This document shows positions 1 through 7,235 of a DNA stretch of 64,000 bases, in pieces. Below the pieces are notes generated by a model. The model worked only from the letters and a program-made list of their open reading frames with translations. It was not told the origin of the DNA and did not search any database. How positions within the stretch are numbered: the stretch's first letter is position 1; the number at the start of each line of letters is the position of its first letter. The translations under genes were made by a program, and so were the position numbers. This DNA comes from Thioalbus denitrificans. GTDB taxonomy: Bacteria; Pseudomonadota; Gammaproteobacteria; DSM-26407. The DNA is taken from positions 62,001 to 126,000 of the forward strand of contig NZ_QPJY01000004.1 of assembly GCF_003337735.1 (NCBI RefSeq), in the 5' to 3' direction.

Positions 1-2864
1 GGATGCCCGTGCGCCAGGGCACCGACGCCGCCGCCTTCCTGGCCATGGGCCACGTGGCGCTGAAGGAGTTCTACCTGGAACGGCAGGATCCCTACTTCCA
101 GGAATATGCCCGCAAGTACACCGACTTCCCCATGCAGGTGCTGCTGCGCCGGCAGGGGGACAGCTACGTCAGCGACCGCTACCTGCGCGCCTCCGACTTC
201 GACGGCGGCCTGGGGGAGACGAACAATCCCGAGTGGAAGACCATCGTTTTCGACGCCGGGAGCGGCGCCTTCGTGGTCCCCAACGGCTCCATGGGCTTCC
301 GCTGGGGCGAGAACGGCAAGTGGAACCTGCTGCCGAAGAACGCCGCCGACGCCAGCGACATCGAGGCGGAGATCACCTGCATCGACAGCCGCGACGAGGT
401 GGTTCCCGTGGCCTTCCCCCACTTCAACCCGGGCGAGGAGCGGGTGCTGGAGCGCAATGTGCCGGTGCGCCGGCTCACCCTCGCCTCCGGCGAGGAGGTC
501 CTGGTCACCTCGGTGTTCGACCTGCAGCTGGCCCAGTACGGGCTCGACCGCGGACTCGGCGGCGGCAACGTGGCCGCCTCCTACGACGACGAGGTGGCCT
601 ACACCCCCGCCTGGGCGGAGAAGGTGACCGGCGTGAAGCGCGCCGACCTCATCCGCACCGGGCGGGAGTTCGCCGACAACGCCGCCAAGACCCGCGGCAA
701 GTCCATGGTCATCCTCGGTGCCGCCATCAACCACTGGTACCACAATGACATGAACTACCGCGCCATCATGAACCTGCTGCACATGTGCGGGTGCGTGGGG
801 CAGTCGGGCGGCGGCTGGGCCCACTACGTGGGACAGGAGAAGCTGCGCCCGCAGGCGGGCTGGGCGCCGGTGGCCTTCGGCCTCGACTGGCACCGGCCGC
901 CGCGGCAGATGAACTCCACCAGCTTCTGGTACTTCCACACCGACCAGTGGCGCTACGAGCGGGTGAGCGCCGATTCGCTCCTCGCCCCCACCGCCAAGGG
1001 GAAATACCGCGGCTACACCCTGGCCGACTACAACGTGGTGGCCCAGCGCCTCGGCTGGCTCCCCTCGGCGCCCCACTTCAACCGCAACCCCCTCGACATC
1101 GTCAACGATGCCGAGGCCGCGGGCGCGGCCGACGAGGCGGGGGTGGGGAAATACGTGGTGGAGCAACTCAAGTCCGGTGACCTCCGCTTCGCCGCGGAGG
1201 ACGTGGACGCCCCGGAGAGCTGGCCGCGCAACCTCTTCGTCTGGCGCGCCAACCTCATCGGCTGCTCGGCCAAGGGCCACGAGTACTTCCTGAAGCACCT
1301 GCTCGGCGCCCAGAACGGCGTCATGTCCGAGGGCGTCGAGGGCGCGGAGACGAAGGAGATCAAGTGGCACGAGAAGGCGCCCATCGCCAAGCTCGACCTG
1401 ATGGTGGACATCAACTTCCGCCTCAACTCCACCGGTGCCTACTCCGACATCATCCTGCCCACGGCCACCTGGTACGAAAAGGCGGACCTCAACACCACCG
1501 ACATGCACCCCTTCGTGCACCCCCTCTCCGAGGCGGTGGACCCGGCCTGGGAGTCGAAGACCGACTGGCAGATCTTCAAGACCATCGCCAGGGAGTTCTC
1601 GGAGCTGGCCGGCAAGCACCTGGGCACCCGCAAGGACCTGGTGGCCCTGCCCATGCTCCATGACACCCCCATGGAGCTGGCCCAGCCCTTCGGCGTGCAG
1701 GACTGGAAGCGCGGCGAGTGCGAGCCGGTGCCCGGCAAGAGCCTGCCGCTGCTGAAGGTGGTGGAGCGCGACTACGCTAACACCTACAAGAAGTTCACCT
1801 CGCTGGGCCCGCTGATGACCAAGCTCGGCAACAACGTCAAGGGCATCGACTGGGATACCCAGGACGAGTACGAGCACCTGAAGCACCACAACCGCACCAT
1901 CCAGGAGGACGGCGTCTCCAAGGGCATGCCGCAGCTGGAGGACGATATCGCGGTTTGCGACACGGTCCTGCTGATGGCCCCGGAGACCAACGGCGAGGTG
2001 GCCCACAAGTCGTGGAAGGCGCTGGGGAAGAAGACCGGCATCGACCACAACCACCTGTGCGACCCGCGCCGGGACGAGAAGATTCTCTACCGCGACATCC
2101 AGGCCCAGCCGCGCAAGATCATCACCGCGCCCACCTGGTCCGGGATCGAGTCCGAGGAGGTGAGCTACAACGCCGGCTGGACCAACATCCACGAGCACAT
2201 CCCGTTCCGCACCCTCACCGGGCGGGCCCAGTTCTACCAGGACCACGAGTGGATGCTCGACTTCGGCGAGGGCTTCTGCGCCTACCGCCCGCCGGTGGAC
2301 CTGAAGGCCCACGAGACGGTGCCCGACGCGGTGCGCGCCAAGCCGCACCTGGTGCTCAACTGGATCACCCCCCACTCCAAGTGGGGCATCCACTCAACCT
2401 ACCAGGACAACCTGCGCATGCTCACCCTGTTCCGCGGCGGCCCCTACATGTGGGTGGCCGAGGACGACGCGAAGAGCATCGGCCTCAGGGACAACGACTG
2501 GGTGGAGGCGGTGAACGCCAACGGTGCCACGGTGGCCCGGGTGGTGGTCTCCCAGCGGGTGCCACGGGGCATGGCCATCATGTACCACGCCCAGGAGAAG
2601 AACGTGAACGTGCCGGGCTCCAACACCACCGGCAAGCGCGGCGGCATCCTCAACTCGGTGACCCGCGTGGTGGTCAAGCCCACCCACATGATCGGCGGCT
2701 ACGCGCAGCTCTCCTACGGCTTCAACTACTACGGCACCGTGGGATCCCAGCGCGACGAGTACGTGGTGATCCACAAGATCGAGGACCGCGACGTGGACTG
2801 GCTGGAGCGCCCGCTCACACCCGAGCGCGAGGCACAGCTCAACCCGGTCGGTGTGAACAACTGA
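1..2864 (+). CDS. narG: Respiratory nitrate reductase alpha subunit NarG (5' end outside window)
   Basis: Molybdopterin catalytic subunit of the membrane-bound nitrate reductase, reducing nitrate to nitrite on the cytoplasmic side. About 953 residues are present. They align by eye with E. coli NarG from roughly residue 280 to the C-terminus, with near-identical blocks such as SYDDEVAYTPAWAE, CGCVGQSGGGWAHYVG, SDIILPTATWYEK and KPTHMIGGYA. The family is about 1,245 residues, so the N-terminal 280 or so, including the FS0 iron-sulfur ligands and the Asp that binds molybdenum, lie upstream of base 1. The reading frame runs straight through base 1, so the first ATG at 3 is internal. narHJI follow on the same strand. 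The nar promoter is outside the window. Confidence 0.97.
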   Translation, partial: MPVRQGTDAAAFLAMGHVALKEFYLERQDPYFQEYARKYTDFPMQVLLRRQGDSYVSDRYLRASDFDGGLGETNNPEWKTIVFDAGSGAFVVPNGSMGFRWGENGKWNLLPKNAADASDIEAEITCIDSRDEVVPVAFPHFNPGEERVLERNVPVRRLTLASGEEVLVTSVFDLQLAQYGLDRGLGGGNVAASYDDEVAYTPAWAEKVTGVKRADLIRTGREFADNAAKTRGKSMVILGAAINHWYHNDMNYRAIMNLLHMCGCVGQSGGGWAHYVGQEKLRPQAGWAPVAFGLDWHRPPRQMNSTSFWYFHTDQWRYERVSADSLLAPTAKGKYRGYTLADYNVVAQRLGWLPSAPHFNRNPLDIVNDAEAAGAADEAGVGKYVVEQLKSGDLRFAAEDVDAPESWPRNLFVWRANLIGCSAKGHEYFLKHLLGAQNGVMSEGVEGAETKEIKWHEKAPIAKLDLMVDINFRLNSTGAYSDIILPTATWYEKADLNTTDMHPFVHPLSEAVDPAWESKTDWQIFKTIAREFSELAGKHLGTRKDLVALPMLHDTPMELAQPFGVQDWKRGECEPVPGKSLPLLKVVERDYANTYKKFTSLGPLMTKLGNNVKGIDWDTQDEYEHLKHHNRTIQEDGVSKGMPQLEDDIAVCDTVLLMAPETNGEVAHKSWKALGKKTGIDHNHLCDPRRDEKILYRDIQAQPRKIITAPTWSGIESEEVSYNAGWTNIHEHIPFRTLTGRAQFYQDHEWMLDFGEGFCAYRPPVDLKAHETVPDAVRAKPHLVLNWITPHSKWGIHSTYQDNLRMLTLFRGGPYMWVAEDDAKSIGLRDNDWVEAVNANGATVARVVVSQRVPRGMAIMYHAQEKNVNVPGSNTTGKRGGILNSVTRVVVKPTHMIGGYAQLSYGFNYYGTVGSQRDEYVVIHKIEDRDVDWLERPLTPEREAQLNPVGVNN

Positions 2865-2989: not shown

Positions 2990-4558
2990 ATGAAGATCCG
3001 TGCACAGATCGCGATGGTCCTCAACCTGGACAAGTGTATCGGTTGCCACACCTGCTCGGTGACCTGCAAGAACATCTGGACCAACCGCAAGGGCGTGGAG
3101 TACGCCTGGTTCAACAACGTGGAGAGCAAGCCCGGCATCGGCTATCCCAAGCAGTGGGAGAACCAGGACAAGTGGCGGGGCGGCTGGAAACTGAAGAACG
3201 GCGAGCTGGAGCTCAAGGCGGGCGGTCGCGCCTCCAAGCTGCTCAACATCTTCGCCAACCCCGACATGCCGGAGATCGACGACTACTACGCGCCCTTCGA
3301 CTACGACTACGCCCACCTGCAGAACGCGCCGCTGTCCGAGGCGACGCCCACCGCCCGGCCCCGCTCCCAGATCGACGGCTCGCGGATGGAGAAGATCCAG
3401 TGGGGCCCCAACTGGGAGGATGACCTCGCCGGCGAGTTCGCCGAGCGCGCCCGCGATCCGAACTTCGCCGACATCGAGAAGCAGATGTACGGCCAGTTCG
3501 AGAACACCTTCCACATGTACCTGCCGCGGCTGTGCAACCACTGCCTCAACCCGGCCTGCGTGGCCGCCTGCCCCGCCGGCTCCATCTACAAGCGCGAGGA
3601 GGACGGCGTGGTGCTGGTGGACCAGGACAAGTGCCGCGGCTGGCGCATGTGCATCAGCGGCTGCCCCTACAAGAAGGTCTACTACAACTGGGAGTCGGGC
3701 AAGTCGGAGAAGTGCATCCTCTGCTACCCGCGCATCGAGTCGGGCCTGCCCACCGCCTGCGCCGAGTCCTGCGTGGGGCGCATCCGCTACATGGGCGTCA
3801 TCCTCTATGACGCCGACAGGATCGGCACCGCCGCGGCCACGGAAAATCCCAAGGGGCTCTACGAGGCCCACCAGGGGGTATTCTGCGATCCCAACGATCC
3901 GGAGATCATCGAGCAGGCGCGCCGCGACGGCATTCCCGAGAGCTGGATTACCGCGGCCCAGAACTCCCCGGTGTGGAAGATGGCCATGGAGTGGAAGATC
4001 GCCTTCCCCATCCACCCGGAGTTCCGCACCCTGCCCATGATGTGGTACGTGCCGCCTCTCTCGCCCGTGCAGAGCCAGCTGGACCAGGGCAATCTGCCCA
4101 CCGGCGAGGACGGCGTCATCCCCACCGCCGATGCGCTGCGCTTCCCCGCCCGCTACCTGGCCAACCTGCTCACCGCCGGCGACACCGCCCCCATCATCAG
4201 CGCGCTCAACCGGCTCATCGCCATGCGCAGCCACCAGCGTTCGAAGCGGGTGGAGGGCTCCGGCAACGCCGCGGTGCTGGAACGGGTGGGGCTGACCGAG
4301 GCGGAGGCCGAGGAGATGTACCGCTACCTGGCCATCGCCAACTATGAGGATCGCTTTGTCATTCCCACCTCTCACGAGGAGATGCGCCAGGAGGATCCCT
4401 ACGCCTTCCAGGGCCAGATGGGGTTCGGGCCCGGCAACAGCAGCGCCTACGGCATCGATGCGGGCGAGGGCTTCAGCCTCTTCCCCACCCGCCGCACCCG
4501 CTCGGAGGTGCCCATCACCTTCGTGCCGCCGCCGAGCAAGGAAACCGAGAAGGCCTGA
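2990..4558 (+). CDS. narH: Nitrate reductase beta subunit NarH
   Basis: Electron-transfer subunit of 522 residues (E. coli NarH has 512) that passes electrons from the NarI hemes to NarG. Four cysteine clusters are visible: CIGCHTCSVTC (residues 16-26), CNHCLNPACVAAC (near 182-194), CRGWRMCISGC (near 216-226) and CILCYPR...CAESC (near 243-261). The Trp in CRGW replaces the fourth Cys and marks the [3Fe-4S] site typical of NarH; the other clusters should be [4Fe-4S]. The start follows GTGAGGAGATTTTC, which contains a good ribosome-binding site. The gene lies 125 bp after narG, across a repeat element, and 12 bp before narJ. Confidence 0.97.
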   Translation: MKIRAQIAMVLNLDKCIGCHTCSVTCKNIWTNRKGVEYAWFNNVESKPGIGYPKQWENQDKWRGGWKLKNGELELKAGGRASKLLNIFANPDMPEIDDYYAPFDYDYAHLQNAPLSEATPTARPRSQIDGSRMEKIQWGPNWEDDLAGEFAERARDPNFADIEKQMYGQFENTFHMYLPRLCNHCLNPACVAACPAGSIYKREEDGVVLVDQDKCRGWRMCISGCPYKKVYYNWESGKSEKCILCYPRIESGLPTACAESCVGRIRYMGVILYDADRIGTAAATENPKGLYEAHQGVFCDPNDPEIIEQARRDGIPESWITAAQNSPVWKMAMEWKIAFPIHPEFRTLPMMWYVPPLSPVQSQLDQGNLPTGEDGVIPTADALRFPARYLANLLTAGDTAPIISALNRLIAMRSHQRSKRVEGSGNAAVLERVGLTEAEAEEMYRYLAIANYEDRFVIPTSHEEMRQEDPYAFQGQMGFGPGNSSAYGIDAGEGFSLFPTRRTRSEVPITFVPPPSKETEKA

Positions 4559-4570
4559 GGAGGAGAGATC

Positions 4571-5089
4571 ATGCAACTCTATACCGTCATTGCCCGCCTG
4601 CTGGACTATCCCGACGAGCTCCTCCATGGCCATCTCGGCGCGTTGCAGGAGTGGCTCCACGACGAGCCCGATATCGCCGCAGAGGACCGCGCCGCGGTTT
4701 CCGAGCTGGTGGCCTGGATGAGCTCGCAGCCGCTGCTGGCCCTCCAGGGACACTACGTGCAGACCTTCGACATGACCCCGGAGCACAGCCTGCACCTGAC
4801 CCATCACCTGTTCGGTGACGACCGTGGCCGCGGCCCGGCGCTGGTGGATCTCTCCGAGCACTACAAGGGCGCGGGGCTGGAGGCGGTGGCCGGCGAACTG
4901 CCCGACTACCTGCCCCTGGTGCTGGAGTACTGCTCCACCCTGGAGCCGTTCGCCGCCCGGGTCTTCCTGGGCGACGCGGCCAAGGTGATCCGGGTCCTGG
5001 CCGCCAACCTGGAGCGCGCCGGCAGCCCCTATGCCCCGGTCCTGCGCGTCATCGAGAAACACGGCCACCTGGCCCGCACCGCCGCCTGA
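4571..5089 (+). CDS. narJ: Nitrate reductase assembly chaperone NarJ
   Basis: System-specific chaperone of the NarJ/TorD-like helical family. It is needed to insert the molybdenum cofactor into NarG before the complex docks on NarI, and is not part of the final enzyme. The protein has 172 residues, shorter than E. coli NarJ (about 236) but within the range of other proteobacterial homologues. The N-terminal YTVIARLLDYPDELL and the central HYVQTFDMTPEHSLHLTHH blocks are typical of the family. It starts 12 bp after narH with GAGGAGAG upstream and ends 11 bp before narI, so the genes are very probably co-translated. The product rests on family pattern and operon position. Confidence 0.93.
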   Translation: MQLYTVIARLLDYPDELLHGHLGALQEWLHDEPDIAAEDRAAVSELVAWMSSQPLLALQGHYVQTFDMTPEHSLHLTHHLFGDDRGRGPALVDLSEHYKGAGLEAVAGELPDYLPLVLEYCSTLEPFAARVFLGDAAKVIRVLAANLERAGSPYAPVLRVIEKHGHLARTAA

Positions 5090-5100
5090 GGAGATACCCC

Positions 5101-5796
5101 ATGAACCTGCACGACTTCCTGTACGGGGCCTACCCCTACCTGGCGGGAACCATCTTCCTGCTGGGCAACTGGATTCGCTTCGACCGCGAACAGTACACCT
5201 GGAAAAGCGACTCGAGCCAGATCCTTTCCAACCGCAACATGCGCCTGGCGAGCAACCTGTTCCACGTGGGCATCATCGCCATCTTCCTCGGTCACCTGGT
5301 GGGCCTGCTGACCCCCCACGGCCTGTTCCTGGCCCTGGGCGTATCCGACATGCTGCACCAGTACGTGGCCATCACCGCCGGCAGCGTCTTCGGTACCCTG
5401 TGCCTCATCGGGGGGGTGCTGCTGTGGCTGCGCCGGCTCACCAATCCGCGGGTGCGCCACGTCTCCCGCCGGCGCGACATATTCGTGCTTGGCTGGATCC
5501 TGGTCACCCTGCTGCTGGGGCTCTCGACCATCCCCTTCTCCCTGCACCATGCGGCCAATGGCGATGCTTCGGTGATGGTCGCGCTCGCCGAATGGGCCCA
5601 GAGCGTGTTCACCCTGAACGCCAACCCGGACCTGCTGCGGGGCGTGGACCTGATTTTCAGAATCCACCTCTTCTTCGGCATGACCGTGTTCCTCATCTTC
5701 CCTTTCACCCGGCTGGTCCATGTCTGGAGCGTGCCGCTGGGCTACCTGGGGCGGGCCTACCAGATCGTACGGCGCAAGCAGGTGCCGGCACGCTGA
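5101..5796 (+). CDS. narI: Nitrate reductase gamma subunit NarI (cytochrome b)
   Basis: Membrane diheme cytochrome b of 231 residues that oxidises quinol and feeds electrons to NarH. Five hydrophobic segments are visible. Candidate heme ligands are His55 and His65 (NLFHVGIIAIFLGH) and His189 and His207 (RIHLFFG, RLVHVW), matching the spacing of E. coli His56/66/187/205. The start follows GAGGAGATACCCC. It is the last gene of narGHJI and is followed at once by a strong hairpin. Confidence 0.96.
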   Translation: MNLHDFLYGAYPYLAGTIFLLGNWIRFDREQYTWKSDSSQILSNRNMRLASNLFHVGIIAIFLGHLVGLLTPHGLFLALGVSDMLHQYVAITAGSVFGTLCLIGGVLLWLRRLTNPRVRHVSRRRDIFVLGWILVTLLLGLSTIPFSLHHAANGDASVMVALAEWAQSVFTLNANPDLLRGVDLIFRIHLFFGMTVFLIFPFTRLVHVWSVPLGYLGRAYQIVRRKQVPAR

Positions 5797-5835: not shown

Positions 5836-6045
5836 TCAGGTCGGTTTCCCGCACCTGACCTCCCGCCGCACAGGCAGGACAGACCCGCCGCTACCCCTTT
5901 CGTGGTAGTCACCCGCGCCGTTTAACCTGTATTGGATATACTTCTTTTCATGTTCCGGGACTAATATCCGTCGCCAGGGGACGGAGAAGGCGCTCCTGCG
6001 GCGCGCGGATTCCCGTCCCGGCAGACGGACAAGGAGAGCACGACC

Positions 6046-6417
6046 ATGACGATGCAGACCAATCCCTATGCCCACCGGATCAAGACCATCAATGTGGACG
6101 GGCGTCCCGTGGAGACCGATTCCGAAGGCTACCTGCAGGATCTCGACGAATGGTCCGAGGCCTTCGCCGTCGCCCTCGCCGAGGAGGAGGGCCTGGAGCT
6201 CACCGACGAGCACTGGGAGGTGATCCGCTTCATCCGCGACTACCATGAACGGAACCACATCCAGGCCCAGGTGCGCCACATGATCCAGCATTTCCGCAAG
6301 GCTTGGGGTCCCGGGCGCGGCAACAACCACTACCTGCACGATCTCTTCCCCCGGGGCGGCCCGCAGAAGCAGGGCAACCGCCTGGCCGGAATCCGCCGCA
6401 CCAAGGGCGAGCACTGA
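6046..6417 (+). CDS. DsrC/TusE-family protein without cysteines (RspA-like)
   Basis: 123 residues with the DsrC/TusE fold signature: NVDGRPVETDSEGYLQDLDEW, the helical LTDEHWEVIRFIRDYHER block and LFPRGGPQKQGNRLAG near the C-terminus. DsrC carries two functional C-terminal cysteines and TusE keeps the penultimate one. Here the position after KQG is Asn, the protein ends RRTKGEH and there is no cysteine anywhere. Such homologues have been called RspA and are thought to be regulatory rather than sulfur carriers. The start has a strong AAGGAGAG site. The gene lies 249 bp after narI on the same strand and probably has its own promoter. A role linked to sulfur or nitrate regulation is inference. 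Confidence 0.85.
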   Translation: MTMQTNPYAHRIKTINVDGRPVETDSEGYLQDLDEWSEAFAVALAEEEGLELTDEHWEVIRFIRDYHERNHIQAQVRHMIQHFRKAWGPGRGNNHYLHDLFPRGGPQKQGNRLAGIRRTKGEH

Positions 6418-6429
6418 CGGGGGCACGAT

Positions 6430-6528
6430 GGACAATGGAAAAGGGATAAGGGACAAGGGACAATGGATAAGGGAAAAAGGTTAAAGATAAACCCTTGACC
6501 TTTGACCTTTGTCCATTAACCCTTATCC
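6430..6528. repeat. Inverted iterated repeat, GACAAGG/GATAAGG family
   Basis: The left arm (6430-6473) carries repeated GGACAATGG, GGGATAAGG and GGACAAGG units. The right arm (6492-6528) carries their complements (CCTTTGACC, TTTGTCC, CCCTTATCC). The core is only about 18 bp. The element fills the gap between the DsrC-like gene and the amidotransferase and ends 8 bp before the ATG, so a folded transcript could mask that start. Confidence 0.75.
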
Positions 6529-6536
6529 TCAACCGC

Positions 6537-7235
6537 ATGAAACCGATACGCATATTCCGCCACGTGGCCTGCGAGGGTCCCGGCTACCTCGCGACCTTTC
6601 TCGACCGGGCCGGAATCCCCTGGGAACTGGTGGCCGTGGACGCGGGCGAGGCCATTCCCGGCGCATTGTCGGACGTCTCCGGGCTGGTGTTCATGGGCGG
6701 GCCCATGAGCGTCAACGATCCCCTGCCCTGGATCGGCGCCGAGCTGGCCCTGATCCGCCGGGCGTCGGAGGCGGACGTTCCGGTTCTCGGCCACTGTCTC
6801 GGTGGCCAGCTGATCGCCAAGGCGCTGGGCGGCGCGGTGGGGCCGAACGCGGTGCGGGAGATCGGCTGGCACCCGGTGGAGCGGCTGCCGGACACGGACG
6901 CCTGGCTGGAGGGGCTGCCGGCCACTTTCACGGCCTTCCACTGGCACGGCGAAACCTTTTCCCTCCCGGCCGGGGCCGTGCCCCTGCTGCGCAGCGCGCA
7001 CTGTGAAAACCAGGCCTTCGCCATCGGCAACACCCTCGCGCTCCAGTGTCACGTGGAAATGACCGCCCCGATGGTGCGCGAGTGGGCCGCGCTCTACCGC
7101 GATGAACTGGACGATCCGTCGCCCGCGGTCCAGGATGCCGGAGAGATGCTCGCGGCTATCGAGAACCGCGTGGCCGGGCAGCAGGCCGCCGCTGATCGCC
7201 TCTACCGTCGGTGGCTGCGCCCCATCACCGACTGA
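6537..7235 (+). CDS. Class I glutamine amidotransferase (GMP synthase-like)
   Basis: Stand-alone amidotransferase domain of 232 residues. The nucleophile elbow GHCLGGQ holds the catalytic Cys; HWHGETFSLPAGA and LQCHVEMT supply the expected His region. The fold is that of the GMP-synthase-like group (GATase1), with unknown acceptor. The start at 6537 is chosen because MKPIRIFRHV begins the conserved beta strand, whereas the frame upstream of it is repeat DNA. A 65-residue gene follows 30 bp downstream. Confidence 0.85.
   Translation: MKPIRIFRHVACEGPGYLATFLDRAGIPWELVAVDAGEAIPGALSDVSGLVFMGGPMSVNDPLPWIGAELALIRRASEADVPVLGHCLGGQLIAKALGGAVGPNAVREIGWHPVERLPDTDAWLEGLPATFTAFHWHGETFSLPAGAVPLLRSAHCENQAFAIGNTLALQCHVEMTAPMVREWAALYRDELDDPSPAVQDAGEMLAAIENRVAGQQAAADRLYRRWLRPITD

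Follow-up and report, generated by a model that had tools for sequence, protein, structure and literature searches.

Cysteine-free DsrC-like proteins that end in KGEH form a clade of their own in Beta- and Gammaproteobacteria, and their genes are associated with the reverse-Dsr (rDsr) pathway of sulfur oxidation and with cytoplasmic nitrate reductase genes, a pattern suggestive of a so far unrecognised connection between the oxidation of sulfur and nitrate respiration. The protein that led to this clade is encoded in a 64,000-nucleotide stretch of the Thioalbus denitrificans genome (contig NZ_QPJY01000004.1, positions 62,001 to 126,000), referred to here as the window. The relevant features of the window are the following.

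3..2864, forward strand: 3' part of narG, whose start lies upstream of the window at about G000:C4:61118 (TIGR01580, 1959 bits in a search of the whole genome; ORF in L010)
2990..4558, forward strand: narH (TIGR01660, 866 bits, cut-off 524)
4571..5089, forward strand: narJ (TIGR00684, 114 bits, cut-off 59)
5101..5796, forward strand: narI (TIGR00351, 256 bits, cut-off 106)
6031..6036, forward strand: ribosome-binding site AAGGAG, read from the sequence
6046..6417, forward strand: KGEH-type cysteine-free DsrC-like protein, 123 amino acids (PF04358, 118 bits, cut-off 24.9; zero Cys; DsrC fold in AlphaFold2)
6346..6414, forward strand: C-terminal arm of the KGEH protein, residues 101-123, FPRGGPQKQGNRLAGIRRTKGEH (column conservation, arm Cys count)
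6540..7235, forward strand: class-I glutamine amidotransferase, a neighbour only (PF00117, 60 bits)

The reading frame at 6046..6417 is a genuine gene that starts with ATG, and its product is a member of the DsrC superfamily by profile score and fold. In addition to the Pfam DsrC match, the protein matched TIGR03342 with 105 bits (cut-off 53.5) and the TusE equivalog profile with 96.6 bits, which is about half of the cut-off of 191. The AlphaFold2 model (pLDDT 90) was found to resemble most closely the solved structure 1yx3, the DsrC of A. vinosum (Z 16.8), with 1sau at Z 16.2; a search of the PDB by sequence returned no structure from the KGEH subfamily itself. There is no Cys anywhere in the 123 residues. 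In the arm, N111 occupies the position of DsrC Cys-B, E122 that of the penultimate Cys-A, and the C-terminal residue is His. With both arm Cys absent, the protein is unable to act as a sulfur carrier in the manner of DsrC or TusE, and the initial annotation was right in describing a DsrC-fold protein without this capacity. The gene is retained in a sister genome at 97% amino acid identity, with a dN/dS of about 0.1 that derives from only 4 amino acid and 15 nucleotide differences.

A search with the whole protein of 369 genomes of the class (Gammaproteobacteria) identified 20 carriers at 133-284 bits, followed by a gap down to 113 bits, where the two-Cys DsrCs begin. These orthologs are 53-97% identical and all 20 possess the arm FPxGGPQKQGNR.AG....GE followed by His (Val once). 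Conservation is highest in the arm: in this set, selected on the whole protein, 15 of its 23 columns are invariant, as compared to 16 of the 88 columns of the body (p 3e-5). When about 85,000 species genomes were scanned with the pattern GGPQKQGN, 587 relatives emerged, of which 80 were kept, and the arm invariance within this set is partly built in by that selection. The GEH end lies outside the scan pattern and was present in 91 of the 92 distinct sequences. None of the 92 has a Cys in the arm, and in all of them Cys-B is replaced by Asn and Cys-A by Glu. The pattern scan of viral contigs revealed no close relative, and a plasmid collection contained only TusE-type matches, at about 42%. A separate draw from the phylum added two new carriers, with the gene located after narI in one and after dsrN in the other.

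In phylogenetic trees, which are unrooted, based on short alignments and uncertain in their deep branches, the 92 KGEH sequences from Beta- and Gammaproteobacteria are placed on one side of a branch with support 99/98 and 39 DsrC sequences on the other. When the arm columns were removed, the KGEH clade still formed one side of a branch (support 93). The clade is also apart from enteric TusE, so that it lies outside both DsrC and TusE and does not represent a recent loss of Cys from within TusE.

The distribution of the clade follows that of dsrA, which is present in 19 of the 20 carriers versus 98 of the 349 other genomes (p 1.7e-9), the sole exception being an 81%-complete genome. Among the 34 genomes of this set that possess narG and lack dsrA, none encodes a KGEH protein. 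Of 41 further carrier genomes, 37 likewise showed a dsrA-family match, which was above the family cut-off in 35; two matches are fragments or dsrB-like, and the four genomes lacking a match are MAGs of unknown completeness. Within the dsrA-containing genomes, narG or MoX, a Mo-enzyme of the nitrate-assimilation type, was present in 18 of 19 carriers versus 49 of 98 non-carriers (p 2e-4, indicative only, since this test was chosen after the neighbourhoods had been seen and the genomes are related). T. denitrificans itself has both dsrA and narG. The KGEH protein is not obligatory for this combination, since 49 of the 67 dsrA-containing genomes with narG or MoX do not have it.

Gene neighbourhoods were compared in 91 non-duplicate loci. 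The gene flanks narGHJI in 31 of these (27 directly after narI, 4 between narK and narG), forms part of nitrate-assimilation operons of the type NarK-NirB-NirD-MoX-FeSX(-NasA) in 13, and is found in or beside dsr operons in 27, mostly directly after dsrN; nine loci encode fusions with the KGEH protein as C-terminal domain and 11 are of other types, several at contig ends. One of the orthologs located after narI is that of Sedimenticola selenatireducens (L078). Nar-type loci are favoured in these numbers because the 80-locus set was ordered by how closely each protein resembles that of the window; a group of 22 carriers free from this bias comprised nar-type loci in 8 cases, nitrate-assimilation loci in 6, fusions in 5, a dsr locus in 1 and other loci in 2. 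The gap between narI and the KGEH gene, 250 bp in the window, ranges from 9 bp upward with a median of 225, and co-transcription with narI is likely in many genomes. A simple scan of the gap in the window found neither a promoter nor a terminator.

The position after narGHJI and before an amidotransferase gene, as initially described, agrees with the window annotation. The nar adjacency is conserved in relatives; nar is not the sole context, as the gene also occurs in nitrate-assimilation operons, at the ends of dsr operons and in fusions. The link between sulfur oxidation and nitrate respiration that had been suggested is strengthened by the co-occurrence data and by the repeated, phylogenetically broad adjacency to narGHJI. 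The amidotransferase, in turn, is a neighbour only in T. denitrificans and a genus mate, and the idea of a conserved linkage was dropped in view of its absence beside the KGEH gene outside the genus.

MoX scores below the cut-offs of the curated nitrate reductase families that it matches. That it represents an unknown system was considered and dropped, since the gene order NarK-NirB-NirD-MoX-FeSX and the presence of NasA in some loci point to a nitrate-assimilation cluster. In loci L105 (2551-8400), L083 and L147, this operon contains a membrane-type MoX and an Fe-S/DmsC fusion, sometimes also a NasA-type enzyme. In the nitrate-assimilation loci L059, L063, L064, L068 and L089, a YccA-like gene faces the KGEH gene convergently or lies close to it. 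In E. coli, yccA adjoins tusE (L174), and the YccA-like neighbour is possibly a trace of an ancestral locus. In the fusion loci (L060, L067, L071-L073, L103, L130, L131 and L151), the KGEH protein is preceded by an N-terminal domain of roughly 90 amino acids, the model of which (pLDDT 80, nine sequences) shows a weak likeness to transthyretin-like sandwiches.

Nar and Nas produce nitrite in the cytoplasm, and MoX probably does so as well. Cytoplasmic nitrite would hence be common to Nar, Nas and MoX-type enzymes, and rDsr is common to the carriers. In structure 2v4j, a complex of DsrAB with DsrC, the penultimate Cys of the arm is located at the siroheme. We know of no demonstration that any DsrC-like protein protects DsrAB from nitrite. 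Sulfite reductases, including the A. fulgidus Dsr, bind and reduce nitrite (PMC10202398).

A DsrC fold combined with an equally long and near-invariant arm that ends in Glu-His is best read as a non-redox mimic acting at the same site. We consider it plausible, though short of probable, that the KGEH protein is a non-redox DsrC paralog that serves rDsr in cells making nitrite in the cytoplasm, with its arm in the DsrAB channel gating or shielding the siroheme. The arm would enter the site that receives the arm of DsrC, most likely the substrate channel of DsrAB, and Glu122-His123 would take the place at the siroheme that the persulfide Cys has in DsrC. With nitrate as the electron acceptor, the docked arm may keep nitrite away from the siroheme, as a gate or a shield, or may lock DsrAB in an inactive state. 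The narrower version, in which KGEH proteins act as siroheme guards and the Glu-His end of the arm closes the DsrAB channel, making rDsr tolerant of the nitrite released in the cytoplasm by Nar or Nas, is a possibility to which we attach low confidence. The arm core KQ..(K/R).AG is common to TusE and gives no specific pointer to DsrAB. Furthermore, more than 10 positions in body and arm that are conserved in the clade differ from DsrC, among them Q73, W87, H98 and Q107, so that another partner may be involved. NirB, although present in a nitrate-assimilation locus, was set aside in this respect, since none was found above the cut-off in the T. denitrificans genome and it is thus not the siroheme partner there.

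Sulfur-oxidising denitrifiers have a siroheme sulfite reductase in the same compartment where Nar makes nitrite, a ligand that sulfite reductases also bind, and would have to avoid cross-inhibition. The KGEH clade is a specific candidate for this role in Thiobacillus-, Thiothrix-, Sedimenticola- and Hydrogenophaga-type bacteria. A siroheme guard, if real, would couple sulfur oxidation to nitrate reduction through a protein devoted to that purpose. Cys-less DsrC proteins, hitherto without a firm role, gain a defined clade with its own sequence signature, together with a prediction of the physiological setting.

Several other explanations were weighed against the siroheme-directed function. The frequency of loci that flank narGHJI or lie in nitrate-assimilation operons, in positions both 5' and 3' of the reductase genes, would suit an accessory or assembly subunit of the cytoplasmic nitrate reductases NarGHI and NasA/MoX that is unrelated to Dsr. 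This explanation is weakened by the dependence of the KGEH protein on dsrA, as evidenced by its absence from all 34 narG-containing genomes without dsrA, and by the 27 loci in or beside dsr operons; moreover, NarG and NasA lack close homology, which makes a single partner surface unlikely. We regard such a subunit as improbable. The occurrence where both pathways overlap and the many positions specific to the clade in an otherwise DsrC-like body are also what may be expected of a scaffold that joins the electron-output side of Dsr (DsrAB, DsrL, DsrMK) to nitrate reductase and conveys electrons from sulfur to nitrate. The protein has, however, no cofactor or Cys for electron transport, and the nitrate-assimilation and dsr-only contexts need no such bridge, so that this role appears quite improbable.

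A different type of function would be that of a DNA-binding regulator, in which the helical core acts as a helix-turn-helix and sulfur or nitrate is the signal for its control over transcription of nar, nas or dsr genes. Residues 50-118 of the core match LexA helix-turn-helix domains (Z 3.6), the KGEH gene adjoins operons that are open to such control, and one fusion locus is adjacent to NsrR- and NnrS-type genes. The structural match to LexA is nevertheless weak and partial, the gene is the last of its operon in many loci rather than divergent, and a regulator gives no reason for the flexible C-terminal arm to be the best conserved segment; we hold this to be an unlikely function. Finally, the membership in the DsrC family and the existence of other paralogs without one or both Cys in the same genome could be taken as signs of a drifting TusE or DsrC with a recent loss of its Cys. 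A single clade outside TusE, an arm that is near-invariant across Beta- and Gammaproteobacteria and a dN/dS of about 0.1 speak against it; the reading as a degenerate TusE is contradicted by tree and conservation, and drift can practically be dismissed.

DsrC of the Allochromatium vinosum type is the Cys-A/Cys-B sulfur carrier of DsrAB. The KGEH protein shares with it the fold (40% identity to 1yx3), the arm length from GP to the C-terminus, the arm core and the occurrence together with dsrA. It differs in the replacement of both C-terminal Cys (CxxxGLPKPTGC) by Asn111 and Glu122, in an extra Gly before GP, in the KGEH end, in its separate clade and in a gene location beside nar or nas as often as beside dsr. 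TusE, which functions in the tRNA 2-thiouridine sulfur relay, likewise has the DsrC fold and the arm core, but it retains the penultimate Cys and forms a separate clade. "RspA", the label used in the initial annotation, refers to Cys-less DsrC-family proteins; the KGEH protein resembles this type in lacking a functional arm Cys and in being a Cys-less DsrC homolog encoded outside dsr operons. Searches for RspA together with DsrC or sulfite reductase returned nothing relevant in the literature covered, mostly without subscription papers.

Cys-less DsrC homologs as such are already known. Homologs of dsrC without the two Cys were noted in the Solemya velum symbiont, in a report that describes neither a clade nor an arm motif nor a connection to nitrate (PMC4287430), and some of the dsrC-like auxiliary genes of phages lack one or both arm Cys (PMC8190135, PMC4164917). 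The literature searched, again mostly without subscription papers, contained no earlier description of the KGEH arm signature or of its link to rDsr and nitrate, and nothing on a DsrC-like protein in connection with denitrification and a sulfur carrier.

The genome of T. denitrificans contains seven DsrC-family genes, including the KGEH gene. Two of them are true DsrCs with both Cys, one of which adjoins dsrAB, and no canonical one-Cys TusE was seen among the seven. Three are divergent paralogs with a single arm Cys or a displaced Cys (G000:C1:671626, C12:48578 and C7:122075). The remaining one is a second Cys-free paralog, which ends in KGGY and is encoded close to the dsr locus (G000:C2:369118-369423, about 17116-17430 in L008), with a YccA-like gene convergent downstream. 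Genes of the KGGY type are also located immediately 5' of the KGEH gene near dsrAB in L114, L122 and L138. Sequence resembling short dispersed repeats was observed in two spacers of the window, namely, between narG and narH (2865-2989) and 3' of the KGEH gene (6430-6500). A Thiothrix locus (L148:3669-11020) possesses two KGEH genes, one before narG and one after narI.
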